Below are positions 6,769-62,842 of a stretch of 64,000 nucleotides of DNA, one piece after another. The notes under the pieces are model-generated. The model did not search any database and was not told the DNA's origin. It worked only from the letters and a program-made list of their open reading frames with translations. The first letter of the stretch is position 1; every line of letters starts with the position of its first letter. The DNA comes from Amphibalanus amphitrite (Eukaryota; Arthropoda; Thecostraca; Balanomorpha; Balanidae): contig NW_024881586.1 of NCBI RefSeq assembly GCF_019059575.1, positions 620,001-684,000 of the forward strand, read 5' to 3'. A program made the translations under genes and the position numbers.

Positions 6769-7917
6769 TTAACCTTCGCCCCAGTGGGGGGGGGGGGGGG
6801 GGGGCGCGTACCGCCGCGCCGCTTGGGGTAGCTTTTGGTACATCAATTTTGGACAATGTGTGAGATTTTTGACCCCAGGTCATGTCAGGTCAGGTCACCA
6901 GGTCAAGTTAACTGACCAAGCCTAAAAAAAAGTTTGCAATCATGTCCAGCCTGCAGTGTTTGTCAGAAAGGTTTTAAACTTGGCGGATTGTATGCTGTTA
7001 TGGGCGCCTACAATTTGTATATCTCGGATTTTTTATATCCGTGACCTAAGGTCAGGTCAGTGGCGTGACCTTTTCATTACAAGTCAATGGAGAAAAATGA
7101 AAATGCCTCTAGATCCGTGTGTACGCATAGGAACAGTCCAAATATTTCAGAATCACAATGATTTAGTTCACTCGTGATGACCAAGGTGTCATTTTTGCTG
7201 ATAGCCTCTAGGAAGGTCATCCGAGGTCATTTGAGGCTACAAACAGTTTTGTACCAATAACTCGCGATTGGAAAGAGATAGAACGCTGGGGATGGTCTCA
7301 TTGTGTTTGTCTTGTTGAGACGCATCGACTGATATGCAACATGACCTTTTCCGGTCAGGTCATGACCTTGACCTGAGGTCAAATTTTCAAGTTGACCTTT
7401 CGAGGTCAAATTATAGTTCATTCGACGCGTCTCGGCGAGGGGAACACGATGCTAGCAATAGAAATGTCGTGGCTTTTTGTAGTCGAAACTTATTGTCGAA
7501 AAACACTTTTCGTAAAAACAGCTATTTTTCGAGTTTTTGCCCTCTGGAGGCTGAACTGTTGACCTGAGGTCAATATTGATAATGGCCTTTTCAAAAGAAG
7601 AGTTCAAAAGCTATCGATTGCTGTTCCATGCGTTTTTCTAGCTACCATAGTTCCTGAGATAGCGGCATGTTTTCTGAAAAATATAATGAAAATTGGCAAA
7701 TTTTGACCTTTGATGACCTCTGGTGACCCCAATATTGCTCTAAGGTGAAAAATGACCGAAATACTTTCAAACGTACGCATTGAGAGCTATCGACTGCTTT
7801 TTACCGCGTCTTTCTAGCCCTCTTAGTTTTTGAGTTAGAGGTGGGTGGTAACATATGCCCCCCCCCCCTCCCCACTAGGGCGAAGTTGGCTGAGACCGCC
7901 ACTGGGGCGCGGGTTAA
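6769..7917 (+). mobile_element. TTAA-flanked AGGTCA-rich non-autonomous element (G)
   Basis: It begins TTAACCTTCGCCCCAGTGGG and ends with the inverted form CCACTGGGGCGCGGGTTAA, so the ends are inverted repeats inside TTAA. A G-run follows the left end and a C-run precedes the right end. The interior has many AGGTCA/TGACCT half-sites, for example around 7353-7415. No coding capacity. It is 1149 bp and belongs to the CCYTCGCC subgroup. Confidence 0.75.
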
Positions 7918-11195: not shown

Positions 11196-12098
11196 TTAAC
11201 CCTCGCCCACACATGGAGGGGGGTTGCCACCCCCCCCCCCCCCCCCAGGTAGTCTTTCTGCTTTGCACTCAACATTTTTAGAGCTAGAAGGCTGATTTTT
11301 CGTATAGCTGCTCTTCTATCCTTTCTTGATGTCCACTGAAAATTTCAAATTTCTGTGATTTTCGGTTTCGGAGATATGACCTTGTTTTTTTCAGGTCATG
11401 TCATGACCCAAATGGCCAATTCTCAACATCTTGCGTTTGCCATGGGCCTTGTGAGCTTTTGACATCTTGATTTTGGCCTTTTTGCCAGTCTTACCTCCCA
11501 CCTATCATGGAACATGTTGGACTGTACAGTACAGGGTGTCAAGGTCAGGGTCAAGGTCAACCTAGATCATCTAAGATAATTGCATTTTAGGCAAGCTGAA
11601 TTTACTTTTTGTGAAGTTTTTTGACCGCATTTTTGGTAAAAGCTTCTCAGATCATGATTTCATGTAATGTGGACACAAAAACAATCGGTGCACACATCAG
11701 TATACACACAGACAGACACAAACAGACATACAAACACATATAATTAACCCTGACCTAACTTAACCTGAAATGACCTCAGCAGCAAAAATCTGGTCGGGTA
11801 GTGTGACAAAGAGGTTCTAGCTGGCTTGGCACCAGAAAACAGCATCGTCATCGGTATATGATAAGCAGCGCACTTGATATCCAACGGTGACCCAAAACAG
11901 CAACATTTTTTAGTTTGACCTGACCTGGAAGGTAAAACTGGGTATCATTGGATTCGTCTCTTCCCCAAGAACCTTTTGGTTTGGTCTTTACCGCTAAGCT
12001 CTATCTTCAACAGGAACAAAATGGCGCGGGGTGGCAACCCCCCCCCCCCCCCATGTGCGTTCTAGGATGGGAAAATGACATGTGCGGGCGAGGGTTAA
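11196..12098 (+). mobile_element. TTAA-flanked element (H)
   Basis: It starts TTAACCCTCGCCCACACATG and ends with the inverted CATGTGCGGGCGAGGGTTAA. A C-run lies just inside each end (about 11229 and 12041). The interior has TGACCT/AGGTCA clusters and no open frame of note. 903 bp; CCCTCGCC subgroup. Confidence 0.75.
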
Positions 12099-16419: not shown

Positions 16420-17462
16420 TTAACCCTCGCCGGCCGAGGGCGGGGGGCGGGTGCCGCCCCCCATAGGGTTTTTTTCGCGATAACTCCGAACACGCTGGCG
16501 ATAGAGAGCTGAAACTTGGCATACCTGACCTTTGATTCAAGCCAGATCTTTTGACACCAACCGCATTTTTGGGTCAGGTCAGGTCACTGACCTATGACGT
16601 CATAAGTGAACATCTGCACAGTGTTCAGATGTCGCAAATTCGCAACGCCCTCACTGCCAGAGGAGCTTTCACAGGGAAATGAAACTTGCAGGATCTAGTA
16701 TCCATTACGAGTCTCACAACTTGTTTATCTCGGATTTTTCCTAAAGTTCATATGAGGTCAGATCATTTTCGTGACCTCACCATTATAAGTCAATAGGGAA
16801 AAACAAAAACTGCTATTATGGCGCCGGGAACGATCTCCAACTATCTAAAGCACACAGAATCGTGATTTGATGCACTCCTTGCAAGGTTAGATGCGTCACT
16901 TTTGCAATGTTGACCTTGCGTGACGTCATTTATGACGTCATCAAGGTCATATTAGCTTTTCGTCAATAACTCCCGATCCAATTGAGCTAGCGAGTCGGGA
17001 AAGCCACCAATGGACTCAGGAAGACCTGCCGAATCGAATGATATGCGACATGACCTCTTTCGACCAACTTCGTGACCTGGGGGCGCTGACCTGACCGTGA
17101 CCTGAGGTCAACACCCTAAGTTGACCTGACCCAAACAAAAAGTATATCATTCGACGCGCCTGAGCGAGGTGAACACGATGCTGCCAAAATCGTTGCTCTG
17201 CGGCCGTTTTTTTTGCGAAGTTATTCGCCAAAAACTGAACCGTACCCTGGGGCCCTTGACCTGAACTCAGAGGCCACCGGTTGACCTAGGACCTTAAAAT
17301 CGGGTACCAATCTCTGCGTCTCGTAACGGCGCACACGCTCGTTTTTTTTCGTGACGCGCTAGCTCCACCAGGGGCGAAACGGCGAGGGGGTCGTTCGTAC
17401 CCCCCCCCCCCCCCCCTCGGCCGGCGCGTATGTAGAAAACCAATAGGTCCGGCGAGGGTTAA
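16420..17462 (+). mobile_element. TTAA-flanked element (D)
   Basis: It starts TTAACCCTCGCCGGCCGAGG and ends with CGGCGAGGGTTAA in inverted form, with a G-run/C-run near the left end and a C-run of about 18 near the right. Half-sites AGGTCA/TGACCT recur through the interior. It stands in the internal TTAA of an older element. 1043 bp. Confidence 0.8.
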
Positions 17463-17929: not shown

Positions 17930-19967
17930 TTAACCCTTGCTGGCTGAGAGAGGGAGGTGGCTGTTGCCCCCCCCCCCCTGCCTTAGAAAATAGTTTCTCC
18001 CGTGATAGCTCCGAATACAGGGGCGCCACGATCGGCGATAGAGAGCTTACATTTTGCATGCCTGATCGTTGATTCAAGCCGGATCTTGTGACACCAACCG
18101 CATTCTAAGGTCTTGTCAATGTCAGGTCACTGACATATGGCTAAGTGAATCTTTGCACAGTCCGAAAATATTGCGACTTTGCAGTGTCTTCAGTGCCAGA
18201 GGACTTTTCACAGATAAATGAAATTTACATTACCTAGTATCCTTCTAAGATCTGACAACTTGTGTATCTCGGATTTTTCGGGTCAGGTCGGTCGGTCACG
18301 TGACCTCGCCATTGTAAGTTAATGGGGAAATATGGAAACTGTTACTTTGGTGCCAGAAATGATCTTAAAGACCTCAAGCACAAGGAATCGTAATTTCATG
18401 CACCTTAACCCGCGCCCGGCTGGGGGTCCTGGATTTCCACGCCCTGCTGGGGTGGGGGTGTCTGACCCCCCCCCCTTCTAACTCGGCTCCTGGGCCACGT
18501 AGCGATACGCGGAAGGCGGCGTTCGAAAGAGCGTCAAAAATAATGACGTAATCACTTCGGTCAATTTTTTGGTCAGGTCAAAGGTCAGGTCACCAGAGGT
18601 CATTGAAGGCAAAATTTTGCCGATTTCCAGGTCGAATGTCGACAATTTCCAAGAAGCCAACGCATAACTCGGGAACCAATAGAGCTACAGCGCCGCGGAA
18701 AAGTGCATTCGGTAGCCCTATTAACGCCCTTTCTGAGTAATTCTCTCAGATTTGACCTAACGTCAACGGTTTTGCCTGCAGGGGACAAAAACTGCAAAAA
18801 TAGCCGATTTTTTCGGAAACAGTTTCTCTGCAATAACTTTTGACCAAAGCCTTGTACGAGCTTACTTTTACCGACATCGTGTTCCTCTCGTCAAGACGCA
18901 TCGAATGAACTATAACTTGACCTTGAAAAGTCAACTTGAAAATTTGACCTCAGGTCAAGGTCATGACCTGACCGGAAAGGGTCATGCTGCATATCAGTCG
19001 ATCTGTATCGTCGAGCTGAACACATCTTAGGCGTTTTCATCGCTCTAGCTGCCTCTATCAAAAGTTATTTGCGAAAAACTGTTAGATACCATTCGTGACC
19101 TAAGATGACCTCAGGGGCATAAACAGGGGTCACGGACATCATTTTCAAGTTCAGTGTGTCTAAACCACTTGTAATTCAGTGTTTGGGAGTGTTTACAATG
19201 TCATTTGTTCAAAAGAGGCGCATTTCAATTTTCTCCCATTGACTTATAATGGGGAGGTCGCAAAATTGACCTGACCTTAGGTCATCGATATCAAAATTCT
19301 GAGATACACATTTTGTACATGCTATTGCTCTTGGCAATCACTGAAAGTTTCAAAGCGATCGGTCACTCGGTGTAGCTATGGCAGACATTGAAACTTTTTA
19401 TGAGGTGAGGTCACTTCAAGTGACCTGGTGACCTGACCTTGAATGACCTTGGTCTGAAATTTTCACATGTGTAGAACTGATGTATGATAAGTTGTACCAA
19501 AAACGGCGGCGCTCCGCGCCGCCGTTTTTGAGATATTCGCGAAAAACCACAAGGGTTCAAACACCCCCCCCCCGAGCAGGGCGCGGGTTAAGTTGACATC
19601 ACCCAAACAAAAAATCGTACGACGCACATCAGCATGTAAAACGTGATTGTGCCTGAATCGCGGCTCTGCGACTTTTTTTGCGAAGTTTTTTTTTTACCAA
19701 AAACCGAACCCGTACTTTGAGGCTCTTGACCTGATCACAGGGGTCGCGGCTTGCATTGGGTGAGATTTTAAAATTTGGCACCAGTCGCTGCGTCAGGCGT
19801 CTCGCAACGGTGTACACGCCCTTTTTTCTACGAGGCTCTAGTTCAATTGCATGCGAAACGGTGAGGGGGGTCCCACCCGCCCCCCTCTCCCTCCCCCCTC
19901 TTCGGCTGGGAGTTGGGACTGTGTAGAAAGCCAATAACCAATTGGGTTAGATCTGGCGAGGGTTGAA
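17930..19967 (+). mobile_element. TTAA-family element (E), interrupted by element C
   Basis: The left end TTAACCCTTGCTGGCTGAG and the right end GGCGAGGGTTGA (TTAA mutated to TTGA) bracket two halves homologous to element D: 17930-18404 and 19592-19967. The break falls where D has AGTTGACCTGACCCAAAC. Confidence 0.72.
18405..19591 (-). mobile_element. TTAA-flanked element (C), inserted in E
   Basis: It starts TTAACCCGCGCCCGGCTGGG and ends GAGCAGGGCGCGGGTTAA. It aligns end to end with 45094-46296, including the block with CTCGTCAAGACGCATCGAAT and the short inverted GGCGGCGCTCCGCGCCGCC near the right end. It lacks coding capacity. 1187 bp; CCCGCGCC subgroup. Confidence 0.83.
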
Positions 19968-26600: not shown

Positions 26601-29600
26601 CCTCTCAGCCACACAGAGGACCCTCTCAGGTACACATAGGGCCCCCTCAGGCACACAGAGGGCCCTCTCAGGCAAACTACACAGAGGGCCCTTTCAGGCA
26701 CACAGAGGGCCCTCTCGAACACACAGAGGGCCCTCTCAGGTACTCAGGGGGGCCCTCCCAGGCACACAAAGGGTCCGCTAAGACCAGCAGAGGGCCTGTT
26801 AAGACGAACAGAAGGGCCTCTGAGGTACGAGGGTCAATTTCAGGCCACAAGGTATCCTATGAGGCCACCAGACGGCCCTCTTAGATCAAAGATGGTCCCT
26901 GGAGGTCACCAGAGGGCCCTCTGAGGTGAACAAAGGGCCCTCACAGCCACCTCAAAGAGGGCCCTCTGAGATCGAAGAGATCAAAGAGATCAAAGAGGGC
27001 CCTCTAAGGCGAACGGAGGGCCTTCAAAGGCCACAAAGTGCCCTCTCAGGCCACTGGAGGGCCTTCTGAGGTGATATGATGCTATGTCAGACCACCATGA
27101 GCCCTATGAGGTCATCAGGCCCTCTGAGATCAAAGAGGGTCCTTGGAAGTCATCGGAGGACCCCTTGAGGCCCCTTGAGGCGAACAAAGGCCAGAGGGCC
27201 CCCTTAGACACCACAAAGAAGTAAAAAAGATCCCTCTGAGTTCAAAGACAGCTCTCTGAGATGTAATAGGGCCATTTGAGGCCTCTGAGGGCCCTCTGAT
27301 GCCACAGAGAGGCGCCCGCTGATACCAAAATAGGGTCCTCTGAAGTCTGAAGCCACCAGAGGGCCCTCTGAGGCGAATAGCGGGTCCTCACATCCACTTC
27401 AAAGAGGGCCCTCTGAAAATCAACTGGCCCTCGGAGTCAGTGTCCCAAAATTGTATTTTGGCTTGGGTGTCAGAGGGGGAAATAGGTCACCCAAAAGGGG
27501 GATAAGAGTGGACAATTGTCAGTCACAGGGCAGCCGGAGCCCTCTGAGAAGGTCACTTGAGCCTTACACCAGAGGGCCCTCTGAGGTGATATGAAGGCTA
27601 TGTCAGGCCACTATGGGCTCTATGAGGTCAGCAGGCACTCTGAGGAAAAGGCTGGCCCTCTGAAGGGAACAGAGGGCCCTTTAGGACAATCAGAGGACTT
27701 TTGAGGCCAACTAGGGGCCTTAAGAGGTCAACAAAGGGCCCTTTGGGACACAAACAGGGCCTCTCAGGCCACCAGGGGCCTCATGTATTAGACAAACATA
27801 CGGCCATCTGAAGTAAAAGAGGACCTTTTGAGGTAAACAAGGGCCCCTGGAGAGAAAACAAAGGGCCCTTTCAGGTACCCAGAAGGTCCATGGAGGCCAC
27901 TAGAGTGCCCTTTGAGGCCAGTGATGGTCTGCAGAGGCCATCAGAGGGTCCCTCTGAGGGTAACAGAGGGTCCTTAAGACGACCAGAGGCCCCCCTTGAA
28001 AATGCAGGTGTCACAAGGCCCGGTTTGCATCAAAGGTCAGGTAGCTATGCCCAGTTTTGGCTCTCTGTTGCCGACGTGTTCCGAGCTGTCGCAAAAAAAA
28101 AAACGATGTGGTGGCACCCACCCTCCCACTCGGCCGGCCAGGGTCCTTCTAACCAGGGATGCGGAGCCGTGGAAATTTCAGACGTCTCCGGCTCCAGCTC
28201 TGGAGAAAAAATCGGATTCGGCTCCGGCTCCGGCTCCGAGTAAAATGGTCCGGCTCCAATACTCAGTACATCCTCTATATAATTAAATACGGGTGGAAGA
28301 GAAAAGATGAAGGATTGGTTCACGTTGCTTATGTATTTGCATAACAAGGCTATTTTGAATAGGTACCACATGTTTTACTGCCTTGTACTGTCAAACCGAA
28401 CTAGGTAGGTCAATAATTTTTTCCTCTTCAAAAAAGCAGCCGGAGTCGCCGCCTTTTTGGACGGCTCCGGCTCCGGCTCCGGCTCCGGGCAATATATGCC
28501 GGCTCCGGCGGCTCCGGCTCCAGCTCCGGCTCCACACCCCTGCTTCTAACTCGGCTTTTGAGCCACGTACCAGCACGCCAAAGGCAGCGTTCGAAAGGAC
28601 GCAAACAATAATGACGAAATTACTCTGATCACTTTTTAGATCAGGTCAAAGGTCAGTTCACATAGGTCATCCAAGGCTAAATTTCGCCAATTTTCTGGTC
28701 CAATTTCGACAATTTTCAACAAACCACCGCATCACTCGGAAATGAATGCCGTGTCGGGGAAAAGCGTAGTTAATAGCTCTTTTAACCCGCGCCGGGCCGG
28801 TGCTCTGAGATTCCGCCCCTGGAGAATGGGGTCTCCAGGGTAAACACCCTGTCTGAACACCCCCCCCCCCTTCTAACTCGGCTCCTGGGCCACGTAGCGA
28901 CACGCGAAAAGCGGCAATCGAAAGAACGTCCAAAATAAGGACGAAAACACTAAGGTCATTTTTTGGGTCAGGTCAAAGGTCAGGTCACCAGGGGTCACCA
29001 AAGGTAAAATGTTGACTATTTCAACATTTTGGAAACTGCCAACGACTATCTCGGGAACCGATAGAGCTACAGCGCCAGAAAAAAGGGCATTCAATAGCCC
29101 TTTTACAGACCTTTCTGAGTAATGTTCTCAGATTTGACCTCAGGTCAACGGTTAAGCCTCCAGAGGGCAAAAACTCCAAAAATAGCCGTTTTTACGAAAA
29201 GCGTTTTTTCGGCAATAACTTTTGACTTAAAAGAGTCATGACATTAATTTTGCCAGCATCGTGTTCCTCTCGTCGAGACGCGTCGAATGAACTATAATTG
29301 GACCTTGAAAGGTCAACTTGAAAATTTGACCTCAGGTCAAGGTCATGACCTGACCGGAAAAGGTCATGTTGCATATCAGTCGATCCGCAACGTCGAGTCG
29401 AACACATCTAAGGCGTTTTCAGCGCTCTAGCACGCCTCTATCAGAAGTTATTGGCGAAAAACTGTTAGATTCTGTTCGTGACCTGAGATGACCTCGGGGA
29501 CATAACGAGGGGTCACAGTTGCCATTTTCCGATTCAGTGTGCCAATTTTACTTACATCTCGATGTTAGAGAGTGTCTAGAATAGCGTTCGTGCAAATCAG

Positions 29601-32600
29601 ACGCTTTTAAATTTTCTCCCATTGACTGATAGGTAAGGGAGAGGCCGCGATATTGACCTGACCTTAGGTCACCGATATCAAAATTCCGAGATTAACGTTT
29701 TATAGATAATGTTGCTCTTATCAATCGCTGAAAGTTTCAAGGCAATCGATCAATCGGTGTAGCTATGAAGAGCATTCTTATTTTTTTCTGAGGTGAGGTC
29801 ACCTGGCGTGACCTGGTGACCTGACCTAAGGCGACCTGGGTCTGAAATTTTCACAACATGTGTGGAAAAGATGCAAAAACAGGTGTGCCAGAAACGCGCC
29901 GCCGTTTTTGAGATATCTGCGAAAAACCGCAGGGGGGGGGGGGGTGTTCAAACAGCCCCCGGCCCGGCGCGGGTTAACAGTTAACACCCGTTTCGCCGTT
30001 TCCATCCTCAGGACATTCAAATCCTTCTCCTCCATGCCGCAACCCATGATCCAGGCTGGACCTGGACGGGCAACTTTATACCATGCGGGCGGCTCCCATT
30101 GGAGTGCACTGCAGCTCCTAAGGAAGCACACTCGTAACCGGGTGCAGTGAGCACTTTGGGGCTGGTCGGCCTGTCCTGTTGAACAGGCTCAGCCCCGGTG
30201 ACTCACCAAGGTGCCCGCCCAGACCAATGTCTCCCTCAATTCCTATCATCCTTCCGGCCCTGAAATGGTCTGGTCAGACCGAAAGGGTATAGCCCAACAA
30301 AACAAACAAAACTCTTTTGACACTCTTTCTGTAATTTGTGCTCAGCTTTGACCTAGGGTCAACGCTCCAGCCTGGGCCCAACCCAAGGCGGGGCTAAACT
30401 GTGCTCAGATTTGACCTAGGCCTGTTAATTGTACACCTTTTATCTCGGAACATTTTTACGTTTCTACAGCTCTGTAGGGCTGACAGCTCTTCCTGCGAAA
30501 CCTTTTTTGGGTCGAAAATGGCAGAACATGGCGTCATTTGCGGCCAACCTATCATAGCCTCTGGAAAAAAAAATTGGTCACAATGTGTAAAATGGATGCC
30601 CGTAGAGGTCCTGAAAGTTCGGTGGGGATATCTGCAGTCATTTAGGAGATAGCTACGGAAGAGGACAGGGGGCCGTTTCGCCCCCCCCCCCCACGGGACG
30701 CGGGTTGAACGCCCTTTCAACTCAGGCTACAAGGGCCCTTTTGCCACTTAAGGGCCCTTTCAACCCAGTCAGTCAAGGGCCCTTTTGACTGCGGACCCCC
30801 CCCCCCCCCCCCCTGAGAGAAATCCTAGATACGCCACTGCCCTCAGGTCTTGATTCTAACATGTCTTGTTCCCCCTCAGGTCTCCATTCTAATGTCTTGT
30901 TCCCCCTCAGGTCTTCAGTCTAATATGTCTCGTTCCCCCTCAGGTCGCCCTGCGGTGTGAAGGTGCTCTCGGTTGGCTCAATGCTGCCCAGTGCTGACGC
31001 CGCAGTGGCTCTGCGCGGTCCGCGAAAAACTCACCTGGTGCGATCCATGCTGAGGGACACGCTCTGGGGACGCCTGAACTACTTGGTTATAGATACTCCG
31101 CCCGGTGAGTGTCTAACTAAGTTCCTGTCGAAAAGTCAGGGATGAGCTTCTAATCTACCGAAGGGTTCCGTCTCTTGTGGCCCATATTGCTCCACCACTG
31201 ACCAGCTTACCTGTTCACATAACTGTAACCTGTCATGCCGGATGTATATAGACCAGTCTGTTGACCTGATGTCCAGTCTGGTGATGTGAAAGTGGCAAAA
31301 TTGACCGCTGAATGTTAATCGCGAGCCGACAACCAGTGATGTGTGTTCTGTCATTTTCCGACCGTTGAGAACCGCCTTCCTCTCGGCCAGGTACCAGTGA
31401 CGAGCACCTGAGCCTGGCCAGACTTCTGCGAGACACGCGGCCCGACGGAGTTGTGCTGGTGACCACTCCCCAGGATCTGGTCTGCGGTCAGTACCCCCAC
31501 CGCGTCGTTCCTAGTGTGATATTGAATGCAGGTGTATAGGCCTGCTTTCAGTAGCATCAATATTTTAGGCAGGTTTGCTTGTGTAGGCATTCTTCAACGT
31601 TAGTGTTTTTTTTTTACATGTTTTTTCAGGATCGGGTTTGAGTCCCTATCAGAGGTTTTTGGGCCACCACTGTGCCGAGGCTTCTGCTGTCCAGTCTAGT
31701 TACTGCCCTGTTCTGTCTGGCTGCAGTGTTGGCTGTCCTATCCGACCGCTTGGGCCTTGGTGAGCTGTCCTGTTTGGCTTCCTTGTTGACTGTTCTTTCC
31801 GGCTTTTGTGTGGACTGTCCTGTCCGGCTATATTATGGGCTGTCCTATCCAGCGGACATGTGGATTGTCCTGTCTGGATAACACATGGACTGTCCTGTCC
31901 GGCTACCGTGACTGTCCAGGCCTGTCCTGTCCGACTGAGCGTGTGACCTCCACCACAGGCGTGGTACGGAGACAGGTGACGTTCTGTCGCAAGGTCGGTC
32001 TGAACATCATTGGCATGGTGGAGAACATGGCCGAATTCGAGTGTCCCTGCTGTAAGGTGAGGGAGAATGAAAACCTTTGTGGTTCTGTGTTCATGCCGAC
32101 ACCGGAGGGCTGTTCACGGGCCCTTTGTGCGGTCGGACCGTACACAGGCTGTAAGCTCCGCCCACTGCGTCCCTACGTCATCCTTCCGTCATCGCACACA
32201 GCGATCGCTGTGGTCGGCCAGGACCGGCCACAAGGGACCACACCCAACCTGTTGTCATTACCGCTTACCCATCCCCTACCCCCACGCCTGCTGCACACAC
32301 CGCACACACCGCACTCAGCAGTTTGCGGCGCCCGTGAACACCCCTCGGTATTATAAAGTGTGTTTCATTTTATACGTAAAATTGTGTTTTAGAAAACATT
32401 TAGCTCTCATTCAGCTGTTGACAGCTTGAGATTTGCCAGCGAGTGCTGTAACTTTTATGAATTGCATGCGAACAAGCTCAGACATTTATCATATCCACGT
32501 AATGTAATTTCCGTTGGATTCAGAGCAGCCTGTACTCTCACATTATCCCCTCCTGCTCCCAGGAGCGCTACCCGGTGCTGGGCGGCACGGGCGCCGCGGA

Positions 32601-39590: not shown

Positions 39591-41040
39591 TAGCTTTGAA
39601 GGTCGCTCCGCAAAAGCATTACTTTCCATAGATGAGGGTGACGGGTGTTACCTACCCCAGACTTCTTGCGATTGCTCTCAACAAGGAAACCTGAAAGCTG
39701 AAAAATAGCACACCTGATTTGATTCAAGCCGATTCTCTGGTGACACCAACGACCAATTACATTTTCAATTCTTGTCGAGTCACTGACCTATGACGTCATA
39801 AAAGACTTCACTCGGTCCCAAAATATTGCGGCTTGGCAGCTCCGCCATTGCTAGGTCAACTTCTGCAGATAAATAAAACTCACAGGACTTCATATTCTTC
39901 CGAGACCATGCAACTTTTATGTCTCGTAATTACGAGCGAGCGAGCGCAGCGAGCGAAGTGAGTCTTTTCAATATAACGGAAAAATCTCAGTATGAGCGGC
40001 CCGGCCCGGCCCGGCCCGGCCCGGCCCGGCCTGTAACGCTTTTGAGAGGCTTATATCTCAGCAACCACTGGACCGATTAGCCTGCGGTCTTTTTTGTTGG
40101 GTAGCGCCATCCCTTCTACCCCGTAATTGACTACTTTTGATGCATCTCAGTGACCGTCGTGGCACGTGCCACGTGAATAGTCAAGGGTGTTCAAGCTGTT
40201 TTGCAAAAGTAGTGATTTTGAGAGGCTCATATCTCAGCAGCCGCTTGGGCGATTGACTTGCGGTAATTTTTGTAGGGTAGCAGCATCCCTTCTACCCAAA
40301 ATAGGATACTCTCGATGTATGTGGGTCACCCCCAGTGCACGTGCAAAATACAACAATAAGAGGTGCCAAATTTGTTCCCATTTCAGTAACCCGGTAATTA
40401 CTGGGGCGATTTCGCTGAAACTTGGCATACAGGTAGGCACCCACCAGGCAATGCATTCCCATGTGTTGCGGTTAGGGTGCTACTGCACGTGCGCACGTGC
40501 AGGGGGCGTTTCCAGATCTCGAGAACGGCTGGGCCGATTGCGCTCAAATTTGGTACACGGTTGGGGACCAGTTAGTAGGGTGCCGTGCAAAAGTCATTTT
40601 GGACCCCGTTTGCACGTGCGCACGTGCAAAATGCCGCTTCCAGATCTCAGGAACGGCTGGGCCGATTGCGTTTAAATTTGGCACACCGCTAGCGACCGGT
40701 TAGAAGGGTGCTTTGCACAAGCCCATTGGAAGCACCCTCTCGCTCTTCCGCACGTGCAGGGCTCACTACCTCGCTCGCTCGTTCTTCGCCCAAAAGGCGT
40801 TTTACTGGTTTCTAGAAGTTCACGTAAAGCTAGGTCAATGACGTGACCTCCCTCACCATCATAATTCAACAAAGGAAATATTAAAATTTATGTTGATGAC
40901 AAAAATGATTTACGACTATCGTTTGCACATGGAGTCGTGCTCGTGTTGCTTCACTGAACTCCTTGCAAGATCGATGCTCAACTTTTGCGTTGTGAACCAT
41001 GTGCAACGTCATAAACGACGTTACATAGATATTGGAGTTT
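39591..41040 (+). mobile_element. Decayed TTAA-family element of the D type, interrupted
   Basis: Segments 39680-39925 and 40812-41030 follow element D in order (GATTCAAGCCG, GGTGACACCAAC, CACTGACCTATGACGTCATA, then GACGTGACCTCCCTCACCAT). The middle is occupied by an 0.88-kb CACGTG-rich repeat. Terminal TTAACC ends are not recognisable. Confidence 0.55.
39928..40811 (+). repeat. CACGTG-rich 0.88-kb interspersed repeat, copy 1
   Basis: Begins TTACGAGCGAGCGAGCGCAG and ends near CTCGCTCGCTCGTTCTTCGC plus AAAAGGCGTTTTACTGGTT. It has a (CGGCC)n stretch near 40000, then several degenerate internal repeats (GGGCCGATTGCGCTCAAATT type) and palindromes such as GCACGTGCGCACGTGC. Two more copies lie at 61949 and 62843. 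No coding capacity; class unknown. The inverted GAGCGAGCG / CGCTCGCTC ends suggest a terminal-inverted-repeat element. Confidence 0.85.
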
Positions 41041-43362: not shown

Positions 43363-44569
43363 TTAACCCGCGCCCTGCTGGGGGGGGGGGGGTGTTTGAA
43401 CACCCCCCCCTTGTGGTTTTTCGCGAATATCTCAAAAACGGCGGCGCGGAGCGCCGCCGTTTTTGGTACACCTTATAATGCATCAATTCTACACATGTTG
43501 TGAAAATTTCAGACCAAGGCCATTCAAGGTCAGGTCACCAGGTCACTTGAAGTGACCTCACCTCATAAAAAGTTTCAATGTCTGTCATAGCTACACCGAG
43601 TGACCGATCGCTTTGAAACTTTCAGCGATTGCTAAGAGCAATAGCATGTACAAAATGTATATCTCAGAATTTTGATATCGATGACCTAAGGTCAGGTCAA
43701 TTTTGCGACCTCCCCATTATAAGTCAATAGGAGAAAATTGAAATGCGTCTCTTTTGGACGAAAGACATTATAAACACTCCCAAACACTGAATTACAAGTG
43801 TTTCAGACACACTGAACATGAAAATGGTGTCCGTGACCCCTGTTTATGCCCTGAGGTCATCTTAGGTCACGAATGGTATCTAACAGTTTTTCGCAAATAA
43901 CTTTTGATAGAGGCATGCTAGAGCGATGAAAACACCTTAGATGTGTTCAGCTCGACGATACGGATCGACTGATATGCAACATGACCCTTTCCGGTCAGGT
44001 CATGACCTTGACCTGAGGTCAAATTTTCAAATTGACCTTTCAAGGTCAAGTTATAGTTCATTCGATGCGTCTTGACGAGAGGAACACGATGCCGGTAAAA
44101 GTAAGCTCGTTCAAGGCTTGGGTCAAAAGTTATTGCAGAAAAACTGTTTCCGAAAAAATCGGCTATTTTTGCAGTTTTTGCCCCCTGCAGGCAAAACCGT
44201 TGACGTTAGGTCAAATCTGAGAGAATTACTCAGAAAGGGCGTTAATAGGGCTATCGAATGCGCTTTTCCGCGGCGCTGTAGCTCTATTGGTTCCCGAGTT
44301 ATGCGTTGGCTTCTTGGAAATTTTCGACATTCGACCTGGAAATCGGCGAAATTTTGCCTTCAATGACCTCTGGTGACCTGACCTTTGACCTGACCAAAAA
44401 ATTGACCGAAGTGATTTCGTCATTATTTTTGACGCTCTTTCGAACGCCGCCTTCCGCGTATCGCTACGTGGCCCAGGAGCCGAGTTAGAAGGGGGGGGGG
44501 GTGTTCAAACACCCCCCCCCCCCCCAGCAGGGCGTGGAAATCCAGGACCCCCAGCCGGGCGCGGGTTAA
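43363..44569 (+). mobile_element. TTAA-flanked element (A), best-preserved forward copy
   Basis: It starts TTAACCCGCGCCCTGCTGGG and ends CAGCCGGGCGCGGGTTAA. Just inside each end is a perfect G-run/TGTTTGAACA/C-run palindrome. At 43441-43463 GGCGGCGCGGAGCGCCGCC is another palindrome. Half-sites are arranged as AGGTCATGACCT (43997-44008), TGACCTGAGGTCA (44009-44021) and TGACCTTTCAAGGTCA (44033-44048). 1207 bp, non-coding. It is the inverse of element B 0.5 kb away. Confidence 0.88.
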
Positions 44570-45093
44570 TAATGGGCGAAACGGCGGCGGGGTCCCCCCC
44601 CACACACACACACTCTAGACGTCTCTCGGTATTCAGAAAGCCGATAGGTCCGACGGGGAATAACGGATACAATGACAACGAGATACGTGCACTCTTTGAT
44701 TTTTGAGAACGTTTCCTTGTCTTGTCTACAAGCTGAAGTTCGCCAATCAGCCTTATGCATTACCTAGCTATATCGCTTCGAGTCCCATCAGTGGGAATGG
44801 CTTCTACACTCTATTAGTGCTTTCTTGGAATGATATCACGTTTGATAGAATTATAAAAAGCGAACACATAGCGAACGGGGCGAGAGTAACACTTAACATA
44901 TTATTTAATGGTTAACCCTACCGGAGGTTTAACAATGCAGTTATTGAAATGAACTGTTCAACACTTGTTCAGCGCCATAAATGAAATTATATGAAACAGT
45001 AGGAAATTAAAAGCTATGAAGGTTGAAATATGCAACCGTTAAGATAATGATATAAATAGTGACGTTCTCGGCGGTATGCCGATCATGACAACA
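44570..45093. other. Unique-looking 0.5-kb segment between elements A and B
   Basis: AT-rich, no gene. It starts with a C-run near 44595 and a CACACACACAC run, possibly the end of another decayed element. Confidence 0.4.
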
Positions 45094-46296
45094 TTAACCC
45101 GCGCCCGGCTGGGGGTCCTGGATTTCCACGCCCTGCTGGGGGGGGGGGGGGGGTGTTTGAACACCCCCCCTTGTAACTCGGCTCCTGGGCCACGTAGCGA
45201 TACGCGGAAGGCGGCGTTCGAAAGAGCGTCAAAAATAATGACGAAATCACTTCGGTCAATTTTTTGGTCAGGTCAAAGGTCAGGTCACCAGAGGTCATTG
45301 AAGGCAAAATTTCGCGGATTTCCAGGTCGAAAGTCGAAAATTTCCAAGAAGCCAACGCATAACTCGGGAACCAATAGAGCTACAGCGCCGCGGAAAAGCG
45401 CATTCGATAGCCCTATTAACGTCCTTTCTGAGTAATTCTCTCAGATTTGACCTAACGTCAACGGTTTTGCCTGCAGGGGGCAAAAACTGCAAAAATAGCC
45501 GATTTTTTCGGAAACAGTTTTTCTGCAATAACTTTTGACCCAAGCCCTGTACGAGCTTACTTTTACCGGCATCGCGTTCCTCTCGTTAAGACGCATCGAA
45601 TGAACTATAACTTGACCTTGAAAGGTCAACTTGAAAATTTGACCTCAGGTCAAGGTCATGACCTGACCGGAAAGGGTCATGTTGCATATCAGTCGATCCG
45701 TATCGTCGAGCTGAACACATCTAGGGCGTTTTCATCGCTCTAGCATGCCTCTATCAAAAGTTATTTGCGAAAAACTGTTAGATACCATTCGTGACCTAAG
45801 ATGACCTCAGGGCATAAACAAGGGTCCCGGACACCATTTTCATGTTCAGTGTGTCTAAACCACTTGTAATTCGGTGTTTGGGAGTGTTTATAATGTCTTT
45901 CGTCCAAAAGAGGCGCATTTCAATTTTCTCCCATTGACTTATAATGGGGAGGTCGCAAAATTGACCTGACCTTAGGTCATCGATATCAAAATTCTGAGAT
46001 ATACATTTTGTACATGCTATTGCTCTTAGCAATCGCTGAAAGTTTCAAAGCGATCGGTCACTCGGTGTAGCTATGACAGACATTGAAACTTTTTATGAGG
46101 TGAGGTCACTTCAAGTGACCTGGTGACCTGACCTTGAATGACCTTGGTCTGAAATTTTCACAACATGTGTAGAATTGATGTATGATAAGGTGTACCAAAA
46201 ACGGCGGCGCTCCGCGCCGCCGTTTTTGAGATATTTGCGAAAAACCACAAGGGGGGTGTTCAAACACCCCCCCCCCCCCAGCAGGGCGCGGGTTAA
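45094..46296 (-). mobile_element. TTAA-flanked element (B), inverted relative to A
   Basis: It starts TTAACCCGCGCCCGGCTGGG and ends CCAGCAGGGCGCGGGTTAA. It aligns with the reverse complement of A over its full 1203 bp with few differences, so both are recent. Confidence 0.88.
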
Positions 46297-47699: not shown

Positions 47700-47789
47700 A
47701 ATTTGCGGCTCCGCCCGCTAGTGATTCTTTATCTTTACTTACCACCACATATCTGCACCAAATTTCGTTCTCCTTTTCACGTTCTCGCC

Positions 47790-49211
47790 ATGGCTGAGAC
47801 CACCGACCCTGCACCAGGTCACCCTTCCGAGGAGCCCGCCGAGCTACCCCCCTCCCAGGCCATCCCTGAGGGACCGGCTTTCCTGCTGGTAGCAAGGAAG
47901 GAGGGAAGTTTCAGACACACGAACCCCTTCTCCCTCCGCCGGTCTATCGACGCGTACATCGGACCAGTGAACTCACTAAAGGCACTCAGGAGCGGCGCCC
48001 TCTTGATGGAAACAAAGTCGGAAACCCAAACGCTCAAAATGATGCGAACGGCCTCCTTCAGAGGGACCCCAGTCACCATCAGCCTCGCCACCCGCCTGAA
48101 CTCTGTCGAGGGGTCGGTCCGCTCCGACGCCCTCACCGAGATTACGAACATGGAGCTCCTCGAAGAGCTGCAGACCCAAGGCGTCGTCCGAGTGCAGCGT
48201 CTCCGATCCCGCGACCTCCAAAGACTCGGACCCAACCCGACCATTCGCCTCACGTTCAGCGGCCGCACCCTACCGCAGGCCATCCGATGCGGGTACCTCT
48301 CCGTGCCCGTGGACCCCTTGGTCCCGGCCCCGCGCCCCTGCACTAAGTGCTGGGCCTATGGTCACTCAAAGCGCGCCTGCCGTCGACGCCAGCCCATGTG
48401 TGGCCGCTGCGGCGGGCCGCACGACGCCGAAAAGTGCGGCGGCCCTGAACAGTGCCCCGGCTGCGGCGGTCCCCACCCGGCGTGGGACCGCCGGTGCCCT
48501 ATCGCGGAGGACGCCAGGCAGTGGCACCGCGCGGAAGTAAAGAACCGCCGCGCGGAGCACCGGGCCCAAGGCCACGGTCGGCCCAACGGAGCCACGTGGT
48601 TCCGGGAGGAGCGGCCCGACGGGCTGCTCCCCGCCCCTCACCCGCCGTCGGACACCGGGTCCCCTCCCACTCGTTCCGCGACCGCCGCCGCCGCCGCCGC
48701 CGCCCGCCCGACCGCCGCCGCCGCCGTCGCCCGCCCGACCGACACCGCGACCGCTCCTCTCGCCGGGGACGACTGGCCGCCCCTGCCGGCCCCAGGCGCG
48801 ACCCAGAAGGTGGCCTCACCACCGGCACGCTCTGTGCCACCCGCTCCTAAGCGCACTGCCGAGGACCCAGAAGCCGGCGCCATGTCCTCACCGGCCGCCC
48901 CTCAGGCCTCGCCCTCCGTCCCGTCCGACACCGACACGGACGACCCCGCTCCAAGGCCGTCCCGCCTCTCCAAACACTCGAGCAGCTCCGCGGAGAGCCT
49001 CAGCAGCGGCCAGTCAGAGGCCGACACTGTTTCCCTACAGCTAGACGAGCTAGACACCACCATAGTCAGCGCCCCCACCCCCTCACCGCCGCCCCACGAC
49101 ACTCCACCGCTCCGCCGGAACAACACCGTTCCTCTGAGCCTGGCCGACCTGGATGTGCTGGAGTCAGCCAGGTCCGGCCCGCTCACCCGGTCAGCGCTAC
49201 GTAAACACTAA
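47790..49211 (+). CDS. LINE ORF1, zinc-knuckle nucleic-acid-binding protein, 473 aa
   Basis: ATG at 47790 (MAETTDPAPGHP). After a central domain (about 30-170, resembling the RRM-like part of LINE ORF1s) come three Cys/His knuckles: CTKCWAYGHSKRAC (CX2CX4HX4C), CGRCGGPHDAEKC and CPGCGGPHPAWDRRC. A long Pro/Ala/Ser-rich, probably disordered tail follows with an acidic end. ORF1 proteins coat the element RNA and take it to its target. Strong G+C in the third position contrasts with AT-rich ORF2. Its TAA is one base from the ORF2 ATG. Confidence 0.87.
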   Translation: MAETTDPAPGHPSEEPAELPPSQAIPEGPAFLLVARKEGSFRHTNPFSLRRSIDAYIGPVNSLKALRSGALLMETKSETQTLKMMRTASFRGTPVTISLATRLNSVEGSVRSDALTEITNMELLEELQTQGVVRVQRLRSRDLQRLGPNPTIRLTFSGRTLPQAIRCGYLSVPVDPLVPAPRPCTKCWAYGHSKRACRRRQPMCGRCGGPHDAEKCGGPEQCPGCGGPHPAWDRRCPIAEDARQWHRAEVKNRRAEHRAQGHGRPNGATWFREERPDGLLPAPHPPSDTGSPPTRSATAAAAAAARPTAAAAVARPTDTATAPLAGDDWPPLPAPGATQKVASPPARSVPPAPKRTAEDPEAGAMSSPAAPQASPSVPSDTDTDDPAPRPSRLSKHSSSSAESLSSGQSEADTVSLQLDELDTTIVSAPTPSPPPHDTPPLRRNNTVPLSLADLDVLESARSGPLTRSALRKH

Positions 49212-49212
49212 A

Positions 49213-52200
49213 ATGTCACAACACACGGAGGAATTTCTTCTCCAGTGGAACACAAGATCCCTTGTGGGCCACTGGGGGGAATTCCGTGAATATATGGTAA
49301 ACAAAAAGCCATTAGTAGCCGCCATTCAGGAGACCAGATTTCTCGACTCAGATTCAATTAACTATAACTTCAACATTTTCGGCTATTCACTGTATTGCGA
49401 TAATGTAAATGAACAACCCCGCCGAGGCGGCTCGGCTTTGTATGTATCTAACAATCTAATTCATCAACAAATAACTTTCAATTCGACTCTAAATTACGTT
49501 GCAACAACCATTAAAATTGCACAGCGAGACATTAACGTAATATCCCTTTACCTTTCCCCAACACATAACGTAACCTTTCAACAACTGGATCACTTTTTCC
49601 AACAAATTCCTTCCCCTAAATTGATACTAGGTGATTTTAATGCACACCATACTGCCTGGGGCTGCCAATACACCTCACAGCGCGGACACATACTTAACAA
49701 CATCATGGATGCGCATGACCTCATATGCATCAACGACAAAACACCGACATATTACAGAATTGAAAACGGTATTAACAAACTTTCGGTTATAGATCTTGTT
49801 CTAGCATCCCCTGACATTAGTCTTCTCTTCTCGCCCCAAGTCCAAATCGATAGATATTTCAGCGATCACTACCCTCTTCACATAGTAGTAGAATCCTCTT
49901 CAAGGAGTCAAAACGATTTCTTCCTTCCAAAATGGAACATGAGGAAGGCCGACTGGAACGGCTTTCAAGATTACATTGACAAATACATAGAGGAATATAA
50001 CAATTACAACGTAAATATAAGTAATAATAACATTGATATACAAAATCTCCTAGACATAGTCAATGAAGCTGCAAATATTAACATACCACTTACCGGCCAA
50101 AGGCCCGGGTATAAACACGCTCCCTGGTGGAGTGACAGTTGTCAGAACGCGGTCGCCAGAAGGCGCAGAGCCCTCAGGCGATGCCGGAAGTGCCCCTGCC
50201 CCCAACACGAAAAAGAACTCCGCATAGAAATTAAAAATTGTAAAGACACCATACTTAACGCCAAAAAGCAAGCTTGGGAAAACTTCTCAAGCAAGTTCAA
50301 CCGATTCACTCCCACATCCAAGATATGGGAATATATAAAATGTTTTAAAAATAAAAAGACGCCAAGCTTCAAAATACCATCATTGCTTATACACAACACA
50401 CTCACAACAGAACCCACCACAGTAGCAACACATTTCGCAGCCCACTACGCATCCACCTCATCACAAAACAGCTTTTCGCAAGTACTTCACCACGAACTCA
50501 GCACCACACTAGCAACACTTACCTTTCACTCCGACAATACAGAGCATTACAATCACCTATTTACCCTTTATGAACTTCAACTTGCAATTTCTAAATCTGG
50601 CAATACTTCGGTAGGCCCAGATAAATTAGCATACCTATTTTTCAGAAAACTAACCGACTTCGGCCTAAATCAACTTCTCTCGGCTATTAACCAACTCTGG
50701 GTTGATGGCACCTTCCCAGACTCTTGGAGGGAAAGCATTGTCATTCCCATTCTTAAACGAGATAAACCAAACACCGATCCAGCCAGTTATAGACCTATAT
50801 CCCTGTCAAGCTGTGCCTCTAAAATTGTCGAGAGAATGGTCAACAATCGAATCAGGGTGTATCTAGAGTCCAACAATCTCCTTTCACAACACCAAAACGG
50901 CTTCCGCCCAGCCCGTTCTACAGCGGACAGCATAATCCACATAATAGACACAATTCAGCAAGGCTTTTACAATGACAAGGTCACCGCAGCGCTATTTCTC
51001 GACCTAAAAGCAGCATTTGACAGAGTACACCATGAAGCACTTTTAATGAAAATACACAATATAGGCATCAAGGGCAGAATGGCTGCCTTTATAAGTAATT
51101 TCTTGGAAAACAGAACCTTCAAAGTAAGAATAGGCAACATATACTCACCCACACACAAAATGGACCACGGAGTCCCACAGGGGAGTCCGCTCTCCCCGAC
51201 ACTCTTCCTTATCTTCATCAATGATATATTTAATAACATAAATCAAACAGCCCACAACGTAGAATATTCAATGTATGCCGACGACCTGGCCCTCTGGGCC
51301 ACCCATCACAGTGTCGATACGGCTCACAATCGCATTCAAATAGCCCTTAATGACGTGAACTCTTGGTGCAAACGATGGGGAGTCGTTATAGCACCAACAA
51401 AATCGGCCACTATGACATTTTCAAAACAACCCAAACATATTAACCCGCGCATTCGTACACAATTGCAAGGCCAAATAATACCGACAGTAAATATCTTCAA
51501 ATACCTAGGAGTAACTCTCGATAGGAGACTTACCTTCAATGCACACATTAAAGACATCTCATCAAGATGCACACGTAGACGCAACGTACTGAAAGCTATC
51601 GCCGGCACAGATTGGGGCGCCGACAGACGCACACTTACACACCTATATACATCCCTGATTCGATCGGTCCTGGATTATAATGCCTTTCTATTTACCAATA
51701 TATCCACTACTCTCAGCAACAAACTGGAGAGTATCCAAAACTCCGCTCTACGCACCATCACAGGCGGTCTCCGCACATCTCCAACAATGAATCTCCAAGC
51801 TGATGCCAATATTCCTTCACTAGAACGTCGCCGGGAATATCAACTTCTCCGCTTCTACATAAAATCGCTAGCGAAACCAAACACAATAACATACAACATA
51901 ATGACGAACCTCCCAGAAAATAATATAATAACACATAGAGAATACAAGTACCCTACAATAAGAAGACACATTAAAAATATTCTAAGGGACTACAAGATAA
52001 CCCCACACGAGGTAACACCTACCCCACCTCTTAGTCCATTCTGGACACAAAATCACATAGAAACAATGCTTCTTTTCGACGACAACAAACGTGAGATCTC
52101 CAATCAAGAAATGCATAGCCTCTTTCTCCAATTTAAAGACGATTATCCAGACCACAAATTCATTTATACGGACGGCTCCAGCGCCGACGGGAAAACAGGC

Positions 52201-57745: not shown

Positions 57746-58761
57746 TTAACCCTATTCGGCTATTCCGGGCGGGGGGGGGGGGCTTTAAGGCCCCCCTTCA
57801 GGTTTTTCTTGTGCCATTGCCAAACGCCGCAAGACTGAAAGCTCAAGCTCGGTGACTTTTCCTAACCATTCATTGCGCACATTTTGACAAAAAAAATTGC
57901 CGGGTCAGGTCAGGTCAGGTCACCAGAGGCGGTTTGATGACCCCACCTCAGAAAAGTTTGCAATCACGCCAGAGCTAGAGTTTTTGACGGATCAATTTCT
58001 TCTCTTTAGGTTTTAGTTAGGGTACCAGTATGTGCAATTTGTTTATCTCAGAATTTTTATATCTGTGACCTGAGGTCAGGCCAGACTCGTGACCTTTACA
58101 TTGCAAGCCTATGGGAAAATATTGAAACGCCTCCTGCTTCGTGTAAACGAGTCAAAACCACCCAATTCTTTCAGTATTATGGAAGATTATCTCATCGGTG
58201 ATGATCCTGGTGCCGCTAATTGACAGGGGCACCGGGAAAGGTCATCTGAGGTCATGTGACGTCATAAATCGCTATTCTGTCAATAAATCACGACATGATG
58301 GTGCTAAAGAGTTGTAAGTGGTACCAAACTGCTCGCCTGGTCAAGGCGCGTCGTTCGGTATGCAGCATGACCATACCCCACAACCTCATTGATGAATGAC
58401 CTGACCTTAACCTCGGGTCAAATTTCAAATTGACCTGTGAAGGTCATCGCATACTTATTTTGCATCGCCTTGACGAGAGAAACAAAAAATGTATTAATTT
58501 TATGTCTCTATGTTTCTTAGTTTAAAATTTATATAGGTAACTAATTCCAAAACATCTTATCGTTGATGACCTCTGGTGACCTCAATATTGACCTGACCTG
58601 AAAATGTTTTATGTAAAAGTTGTATATCTTTAAACGACCTATCAAACGCCGTTTGCCGTTTGTCGCTGCGATGTGTAGTTTTTGAGATCTGAAGGGGGGG
58701 GGGCTGAAAGGGCCCCCCCGCCCAGAATCGAACCTTTCAGAGCCCGCCCGGAATAGGTTAA
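57746..58761 (+). mobile_element. TTAA-flanked element (I)
   Basis: It starts TTAACCCTATTCGGCTATTC and ends CCCGGAATAGGTTAA in inverted form. A G-run follows the left end; G-run and C-run flank the sequence near 58694-58730. Interior rich in AGGTCA/TGACCT. 1016 bp; its own terminal subgroup. Confidence 0.8.
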
Positions 58762-59951
58762 CCTTCCAGGCGGTGGGGGGGAGCATTTTTTTGCCCCCCC
58801 CCCTTTAGTTTTTTCAATATATCTCGAGAACCGCTGCGCCGATCGTCACCAAACTTTCAGTACCCTCCCGGGAGCAGCTAGCGCACATGGTGACCAAAAA
58901 TTTTTCCAAAGGCTATGATAGGTTGGCCGCTAATGACGTCAGAGTGACGTCATTTTTGCCATTTTCGACCCGAAAAAAGGTTTCGCGGGAAGAGCTGTCA
59001 GGCCTACAGGTTTACAGAAAAAGGTTTCAGACATAAAAGGTGTGGAATCAAAAGGGCTACAAAACTGCTATTTCGGTTTTTCGAATTTTTTGGATTTTGA
59101 CCCCAAAAATCAAAAAATATATTTTTTGAATATAATAACCAAAAAATCAAAAAAGTTTTTTGAATTTCGAAAAAAACCGGAATATATGTGATAGTCCCTA
59201 CGCCTTCTATCTACATACCAAATTTGAGATCGATACCTCTTTTTTTGGCCAAGTTATAGCAAAAAAAAAAACTGTTCAAAATTGATGACGTCGAATTTTC
59301 AAACTCAATTTTTAGCAATTCTAGACCTCGTAGCGCAAAACAAAGACCACCATTAGACTCCCCGTGACGAGCTGCATCGAATCGATACCCATTTTATGCA
59401 AAAATATCAACTTTGAAATTTGACCTTTTTTGACCTGACCTTGACCTGACCTCCACCAGAAAGTGACCTAAACCGTACCTGATGGTCTTATAACCAACAC
59501 CATTGAGTTGGAAATGAAAAACTGGCCATAAAACATGCATCGCATAACCTTAGTAAAGTTGGGTTCATGTGGTGACCCTTGGTGACCTTTGGTGACCTGA
59601 CCTGTGACCTGACCTGGTATGACCAGTGACCTCTAATAGCAACATATGTACTAGACAACTGACGCCTTATCGCTGATTTTCGACAAAATGCGTTTTACTC
59701 GGTGTTATAGCGCTTTCCCTAGAAGCCCCGTGAACGGTGAAACACTTTATCTTTGACCTGACCTGTGACGTCATCGGTGACCCCGAGGTCAATGAAATTT
59801 GGTTTCCCTCGGCAAATTTGACAGGGCTATCGAACGCCGTTTGAATTTTCCGGATCCGTTCAGTAGTTTCGGAGATACGGGGGGGGGGCAAAAAAATGCC
59901 CCCCCCCACCGCGCGGAAGGTGGCTGGTAGGCCCACCGCCTGCCGGGTTAA
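58758..59951 (+). mobile_element. TTAA-flanked element (J), sharing a TTAA with I
   Basis: It starts TTAACCTTCCAGGCGGTGGG and ends CCCACCGCCTGCCGGGTTAA; the inverted match is AGGCGGTGGG plus TTAACC. It starts at the very TTAA that ends I. Contains GGTCA clusters near 59425-59640 and A/T-rich filler. 1194 bp. Confidence 0.75.
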
Positions 59952-62825: not shown

Positions 62826-62842
62826 ATTTTCCAGCCTGGGTA

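Follow-up and report, generated by a model that had tools for sequence, protein, structure and literature searches.

The subject of this analysis is a 64,000-nucleotide stretch of the genome of the barnacle Amphibalanus amphitrite (NCBI RefSeq assembly GCF_019059575.1, contig NW_024881586.1, positions 620,001 to 684,000 of the forward strand), hereafter the window. Its interval 43363-46296 consists of two inverted copies, A and B, of one element, which are 97.2% identical and have about 525 bp of other sequence between them. A preliminary description had presented mobile elements here as carriers of dense nuclear-receptor half-sites (AGGTCA, or TGACCT on the other strand). We find that the half-sites are packed into short slots that recur about every 165 bp, that they are conserved between families of elements that can be aligned, and that in the family of A, as judged from shared and private variants, this constraint is tied to propagation. 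The two elements and the slots of A are as follows.

43363..44569, plus strand: element A, a TTAA-flanked miniature inverted-repeat transposable element (MITE) of 1.2 kb with 20 half-sites in six slots
43527..43558, no strand assigned: slot 1 of A, four half-sites
43682..43699, no strand assigned: slot 2 of A, three half-sites
43854..43869, plus strand: slot 3 of A, a pair of direct repeats spaced by four bases (DR4), AGGTCA-TCTT-AGGTCA
43997..44048, no strand assigned: slot 4 of A, six half-sites, the cluster named in the preliminary description
44208..44213, plus strand: slot 5 of A, one half-site
44364..44391, minus strand: slot 6 of A, four half-sites
45094..46296, minus strand: element B, the inverted copy of A, with 21 half-sites in six slots

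The three arrangements that had been read in slot 4 are present where they were placed, with AGGTCATGACCT at 43997-44008, TGACCTGAGGTCA at 44009-44021 and TGACCTTTCAAGGTCA at 44033-44048. Both elements end in terminal inverted repeats of the form TTAACCCGCGCCC ... GGGCGCGGGTTAA, with CC/GG ends, and have no coding capacity, the longest reading frame overlapping the interval being 119 amino acids. TTAA is present at both ends in all nine such elements of the window, and the surroundings of A copies (14 with flanks shown) differ outside the TTAA, a pattern suggesting that the tetranucleotide is duplicated at insertion. In these respects the element resembles a MITE of the piggyBac type. A search of the 807.55-Mb genome gives 3,673 occurrences of its 21-letter end motif and none of the reversed control. 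Each of the eight loci returned with this motif carries a complete copy with 93.1-97.6% identity to A. Of 40 further listed places that were fetched, 33 are likewise full-length copies under a rule (more than 1,100 bp and more than 90% identity) that the other seven stretches fail (L061, L063, L070, L071, L084, L089 and L091). Rearrangement is seen in two of these seven A copies: in L070 a different G-run element, with AGGTCA clusters of its own, breaks the copy behind slot 2, and L061 has lost its first three slots and carries a foreign insert near the right end. By eye, a G-run, TGTTTGAACA and a C-run near the ends of the A family (window 43380-43480 and matching copies) could form a hairpin, and after it a second potential hairpin, AAAAACGGCGGCGC-GGA-GCGCCGCCGTTTTT, can be drawn. 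No Rfam families were found in the window, and none of the literature matches listed describes these elements; TGACCTTGACCT, which appears in an oyster paper, is there part of a primer.

The preliminary description had proposed that AGGTCA be counted against shuffled controls. The window contains 232 copies of the word, whereas 100 dinucleotide shuffles give 31.65 ± 6.04 (largest 49). Once tandem arrays are masked, the word also ranks first among hexamers (229 versus 27.4 expected); the shuffles and the ranking together rule out chance as the source of the excess. Of the window and ten regions together, 108,041 bases lie more than 200 bp from any cluster, and AGGTCA occurs there 54 times, which is background, since eight permuted or unrelated control words occur 28-70 times. 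The enrichment thus belongs to the elements, and a general bias of the genome is ruled out. Ten 10-kb regions at fixed coordinates contain 10, 4, 40, 56, 130, 14, 24, 48, 8 and 29 copies of the word, so that two or three of these blind-chosen regions are near background (about 4-5 expected per region, a figure taken from five tested regions). Across the genome AGGTCAGGTCA occurs 258,952 times versus 1,178 for the reversed word, and some 100,000 elements or fragments, as an order of magnitude, are implied. Tandem slippage of GGTCA had been named beforehand as a possible source of the enrichment. However, 85 of 96 tandem (GGTCA)n runs are dimers, with seven trimers, three tetramers and one hexamer, and among the 49 DR4 pairs that lack an intermediate site at least 14 different spacers occur. 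Slippage is therefore not the explanation, and long GGTCA microsatellites are ruled out by the same run lengths.

The recurrence of clusters at about 165 bp is an addition to the preliminary description, which had not mentioned phasing. In A the steps from cluster to cluster are 148, 171, 161, 188 and 167 bp. In the window and five regions, the distances between half-sites peak at about 165, 325 and 485 bp and have a trough at about 80-110 bp; the same peaks and trough are seen in the ten blind-chosen regions without the window. With clusters masked, 27 trains fall into eight groups without blastn similarity to each other, one of which is an ordinary 30-bp tandem repeat. The 98 inter-cluster stretches form 17 unrelated groups, and 15 of the 17 measure 140-200 bp from midpoint to midpoint. 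In six of the nine window elements, four of them relatives of A, the distance from the outermost slot to the end of the element is 143-181 bp on both sides; the three exceptions have one end at 105, 104 or 663 bp. As judged from the pair distances and the spacer groups, the spacing is close to the nucleosome repeat length. Between slots, AA/TT/TA dinucleotides show a modest rhythm of 10-10.5 bp (power 2.13-2.24 versus 1.27-1.34 ± 0.30-0.36 in 14 representatives), with nothing comparable for G/C dinucleotides. In IMG/VR, four stretches matching AGGTCAGGTCA-N130-155-AGGTCAGGTCA proved to be single dense patches without trains of about 165 bp.

Seven further TTAA-flanked elements were delimited in the window.

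18405..19591, minus strand: A-family copy, 95% identical to A, 20 half-sites
28782..29977, minus strand: relative with 21 half-sites that shares 80.6% identity with A over 28850-29977
6769..7917, plus strand: A relative, about 61% identical to A between clusters, with 17 of the 21 A half-sites kept
16420..17462, no strand assigned: distant element with 16 half-sites, also carrying TGACGTCA
57746..58761, no strand assigned: distant element with 16 half-sites in five slots
58758..59951, no strand assigned: element of family F3 with 15 half-sites in three slots, one TTAA being common to it and its neighbor
11196..12098, no strand assigned: element of another group with eight half-sites in four slots

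The clusters had been said to be kept across subgroups that otherwise differ, as though the word itself were favored. To this point speaks the identity of nine relatives, from the window (W) and elsewhere (L), to the A consensus, split into half-site bases, inter-cluster bases and spacer bases within clusters. Because an aligner may lock on to the word, the half-sites were also masked and the sequences realigned, and the half-sites that still coincide were counted.

W28850: half-sites 97.6%, inter-cluster 80.6%, spacers 73.7%; masked, 18 of 21 coincide
L045: half-sites 98.4%, inter-cluster 82.9%, spacers 77.9%; masked, 19 of 21 coincide
L036: half-sites 92.8%, inter-cluster 79.8%, spacers 76.6%; masked, 10 of 16 coincide versus 33% of other hexamers kept
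W6776: half-sites 93.5%, inter-cluster 61.0%, spacers 63.4%; masked, 17 of 21 coincide
W15703: half-sites 86.7%, inter-cluster 69.2%, spacers 62.2%; masked, 6 of 13 coincide versus 17% of other hexamers kept
W57747: half-sites 87.2%, inter-cluster 54.5%, spacers 45.7%; masked, 7 of 20 coincide versus 4% of other hexamers kept
L043b: half-sites 92.7%, inter-cluster 62.5%, spacers 64.5%; masked, 15 of 21 coincide
W2634: half-sites 95.2%, inter-cluster 76.6%, spacers 67.9%; masked, 5 of 7 coincide
W16420: half-sites 72.3%, inter-cluster 55.7%, spacers 48.8%; masked, 4 of 17 coincide versus 5.5% of other hexamers kept

In six of the nine relatives the half-site bases are 93-98% identical, against 61-83% between clusters, so that half-sites are indeed more conserved between relatives than their flanks. 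These are not nine independent families, since W6776 and L043b, for example, are 95.6% identical. After masking, the alignments still superpose 101 of 157 half-sites over the nine relatives, an excess at the level of bases remains in five of them, and in all nine the rate at which whole half-sites coincide exceeds the rate at which other hexamers are retained, which rules out alignment lock-on as the whole explanation. Moreover, 22 of 24 half-sites that are present in a relative and absent from A fall inside the slots of A (extended by 25 bp, 47% of the length; eight relatives), several of them at the same place, so that they represent fewer than 24 events. The comparison shows the word, in its slots, to be conserved between families that can be aligned, and both parts of the earlier claim hold for such relatives, with and without masking.

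The stage at which this constraint acts can be read from 47 copies of the A family, with CpG positions and the outer 75 bp of A excluded. Variants in at least three copies are taken as inherited differences between source lineages, and private variants mostly as decay after insertion. The former occur at 0 of 153 half-site positions, versus 44 of 693 inter-cluster positions (Fisher P 0.0002) and 7 of 87 spacer positions (P 0.0007); the counts for variants found in exactly two copies are 3, 45 and 5 in half-sites, inter-cluster DNA and spacers. Private variants, by contrast, amount to 5.71 per 1,000 bases in half-sites and 5.63 in spacers (P 1.0), both below the 8.47 of inter-cluster DNA (P 0.015 for half-sites). 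Because the half-site and spacer rates are equal, there is no sign that the word in particular is protected once a copy has inserted, although this test would miss a small number of exapted copies. Slots of A are lower than inter-cluster DNA in private mutation by about one third, half-sites and spacers alike, also after trinucleotide correction (41 observed versus 63.0 expected in half-sites, 23 versus 34.0 in spacers); this is a regional effect, not seen in F3. Whether half-sites mutate like their flanks, a point on which the preliminary description had let its claim turn, thus depends on the class of variant: private rates match those of the adjoining spacers, and shared variants do not. 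Its suggestion that such elements seed hormone-responsive enhancers is, as far as it can be tested with private rates, not borne out. In the A family, then, the two classes of variant show a constraint on the word that is tied to propagation, not to life after insertion. Family F3 (19 sequences; the first 150 and last 60 columns and CpG excluded, and L099 and L107 left out after their low identity was seen) points weakly in the same direction: shared variants occupy 13.0% of half-site, 25.7% of inter-cluster (P 0.008) and 21.1% of spacer columns, and private rates per 1,000 are 17.4, 17.6 and 24.4.

Several features of the word resemble nuclear-receptor sites. Among direct pairs without an intermediate site there are 49 DR4, one with three-base spacing (DR3) and six with five-base spacing (DR5), or 19, 1 and 4 when distinct contexts are counted in a slightly larger set of loci. 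Genome-wide, DR4 occurs at 150,840 places and DR3 at 14,700 (reversed controls 532 and 276), although 33 of 100 DR4 places listed are (GGTCA)3. A 4-bp spacer puts the starts of the two half-sites about one helical turn apart; it is, in addition, among the classical spacings of receptors. Inverted repeats spaced by one base are rare (seven places). The base preceding GGTCA is A in 595 half-sites, G in 180, T in 114 and C in 105, giving RGGTCA, the nuclear-receptor half-site consensus in the part of the account cited here (PMC1785376). A second word, TGACGTCA, shares the phasing of AGGTCA (38 sites), and TGACGT occurs in slots at 27.1 versus 0.9 per 10 kb, far above TGACTT (9.3 versus 1.8) and TGACAC (7.5 versus 1.8). 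This makes TGACGTCA a candidate word for a second host factor in the same slots, perhaps of the CREB/ATF-type bZIP class. The earlier proposal that receptors may regulate the elements would fit these features.

Three other regions bear on the origin of the spacing. L115 (G000:C2:1323300-1325300), L116 and L117, which were chosen because AGGTCA pairs recurred at about 153 bp in a genome-wide listing, are tandem arrays with units of 153, 155 and 153 bp in 3.8, 2.8 and 4.8 copies (80-89% matches by Tandem Repeats Finder). Each unit has one AGGTCA cluster, for example AGGTCA-CCG-AGGTCA-CCTG-AGGTCA; a module with one slot can therefore multiply by tandem duplication. A profile of seven such units has 27 matches up to E 0.5 (reversed control 0), among them the slot-bearing window element at 16963-17037 (E 0.005). 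Matched as well is a phrase of about 40 bases (like TATAACTCAGGAACTACTGGGCCGATCG) in other repeats, including L040, L046 and window 40379-40676 and 62396-63595; the repeats at 40.4 and 62.4-63.6 kb are not AGGTCA elements. The profile does not match the A consensus, and the inter-cluster segments of A are dissimilar to one another apart from a weak match of segments 1 and 4, the terminal repeats and an inverted pair next to slot 4, which rules out A as a recognizable tandem array. Tandem duplication is likely to have been the birth of the architecture; that selection maintains the words afterwards is shown, and selection would maintain the spacing of the slots as well.

The elements, rows of nucleosome-sized stretches parted by short slots packed with AGGTCA and sometimes TGACGTCA, are best explained as a large superfamily of non-autonomous, TTAA-flanked, piggyBac-like DNA elements in the barnacle genome. 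As to the word, we favor, with a confidence somewhat short of even, the reading that it serves the spread of the element, a host protein of nuclear-receptor type binding the slots as linkers and keeping nucleosomes in register. In the germ line or early embryo, such a sequence-specific protein would occupy the slots as linker DNA, perhaps together with a CREB/ATF-type bZIP on TGACGTCA; nucleosomes would stay in register and the element open, so that a shared transposase could reach it, and copies with intact half-sites would leave more descendants. At the outset, a module of about 153-165 bp may have been duplicated in tandem and so have spread the slots and their spacing. Doubtful, in our judgment, is a further step, in which the whole body plan would be a pre-formatted chromatin fiber of nucleosome-length blocks with host nuclear-receptor and CREB/ATF sites in the linkers, selected for its chromatin address and not for coding sequence. 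Several observations weigh against what we favor. A standard receptor dimer cannot sit on the most frequent direct pair, AGGTCAGGTCA (80), whose half-sites overlap by one base, and for this reason monomers, alternative registers or another protein must be considered. With half-sites masked, the base-level excess is lost in four of nine relatives (L036, W15703, W57747 and W16420). In F3 the shared-variant difference between half-sites and spacers is not significant (P 0.26), and the shared-to-private contrast with inter-cluster DNA reaches P 0.06. Tandem arrays can create spacing without selection, and the 10-bp rhythm is modest, coming from 14 sequences and 27 inspected combinations of period and dinucleotide.

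The main rival is a protein of the same specificity on the side of the transposase: the word would be bound by the element's own transposase or by an accessory protein that an autonomous partner supplies, and no host receptor would be involved. Repeated subterminal motifs are found in Ac/Ds and En/Spm, and a constraint tied to propagation, on a word kept across families with the same TTAA/CC...GG ends, is what such a site should exhibit. We nevertheless consider it unlikely, given that the slots span the whole element and are not confined to its ends, that a second, different word shares them, and that the DR4 preference and the purine at position 1 are receptor-like. Less probable again is that the spacing is a relic of satellite-like growth, in which a module with one cluster multiplied and diverged, its cluster kept by duplication or conversion, with nucleosomes irrelevant. 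The three arrays with one cluster of the same word per unit and the profile match at 16963-17037 agree with such an origin, but the unlike segments of A, missed by that profile, do not, and word-specific conservation in dispersed copies would be left unexplained. Preservation by the host after insertion, with many copies acting as hormone-responsive enhancers, has precedents, in the portions of the sources cited, in Alu (PMC1785376) and B1 (PMC10709309), and might be read from the reduced private mutation of A half-sites; the equal reduction in their spacers and the equal half-site and inter-cluster rates of F3 make it very improbable. We give as little credence to an artefact or mutation bias, whether aligner lock-on, a slow-mutating word or regeneration by slippage. 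Dimers of the pentamer are common, whole A slots have fewer private mutations than expected, and masking removes the base-level excess from those four relatives; yet masked alignments still superpose most half-sites, shared variants avoid half-sites and not spacers despite equal private rates, and the word is at background away from clusters.

Elsewhere in the window, positions 1-1882 are a tandem array with a 144-bp unit (13.1 copies, 95% matches) that reaches the window edge; 47700-52998 (plus strand) holds a pair of reading frames like those of a long interspersed nuclear element, with endonuclease, reverse transcriptase and RNase H domains; and 37544-38770 (minus strand) holds a mariner-like transposase in two frames with a DDE_3 match. 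An OGFOD1 protein in the window has its best match in Pollicipes pollicipes (64% over 99%), followed by a metagenomic protein (63%) and the next named species (47%).

Mobile elements are known to scatter receptor sites, which tend to be regarded as material on which the host can draw. Here, in one family, the contrast of shared and private variation indicates that the word matters for the spread of the element and not, as a rule, for the host later, and the words are set at nucleosome spacing. If the chromatin-fiber reading is true, an element would bring its own open, phased chromatin wherever it inserts, the enormous copy number of small non-coding elements would be explained, and linker binding and nucleosome phasing could be tested on the thousands of phased receptor-site arrays that the genome naturally provides. 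In the related account cited here, at least 40% of the Balanus improvisus genome consists of high-copy repeats, mostly novel (PMC8270832), and the present elements may be a main component of this poorly described part of barnacle genomes.

Among known systems, the elements resemble piggyBac-type MITEs in that they are bounded by TTAA, end in inverted repeats with CC/GG termini, have no coding capacity and exist in thousands of copies. What sets them apart is that phased slots, densely filled with one conserved word, run along their entire length. Alpha satellite with the CENP-B box is a nucleosome-sized satellite with one protein-binding word per unit, and the true 153-155-bp arrays of L115-L117 are similar in both respects; A-type elements, in contrast, are dispersed and bounded by TTAA, and their modules are not recognizable repeats of one another. 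Primate Alu elements, according to the part of the report cited, spread direct repeats spaced by two bases (DR2), which are retinoic-acid response elements, to more than 100,000 places (Laperriere 2007, PMC1785376), and the binding of the retinoic acid receptor (RAR) to them is a precedent for a receptor-type site on a mobile element. As there described, however, Alu carries a single pair per element that derives largely from CpG deamination, whereas the present elements have many phased sites each, at which shared variation is absent in the A family. The closest model for the proposed mechanism is mouse B1, a short interspersed nuclear element that contains a receptor-type motif within an abundant element and is bound by NR5A2 in the early embryo, as stated in the section cited (PMC10709309); B1 is a retrotransposon with demonstrated occupancy, whereas the barnacle elements are known from their sequence, and the repeated, phased arrangement that distinguishes them is not described for B1 in that section.

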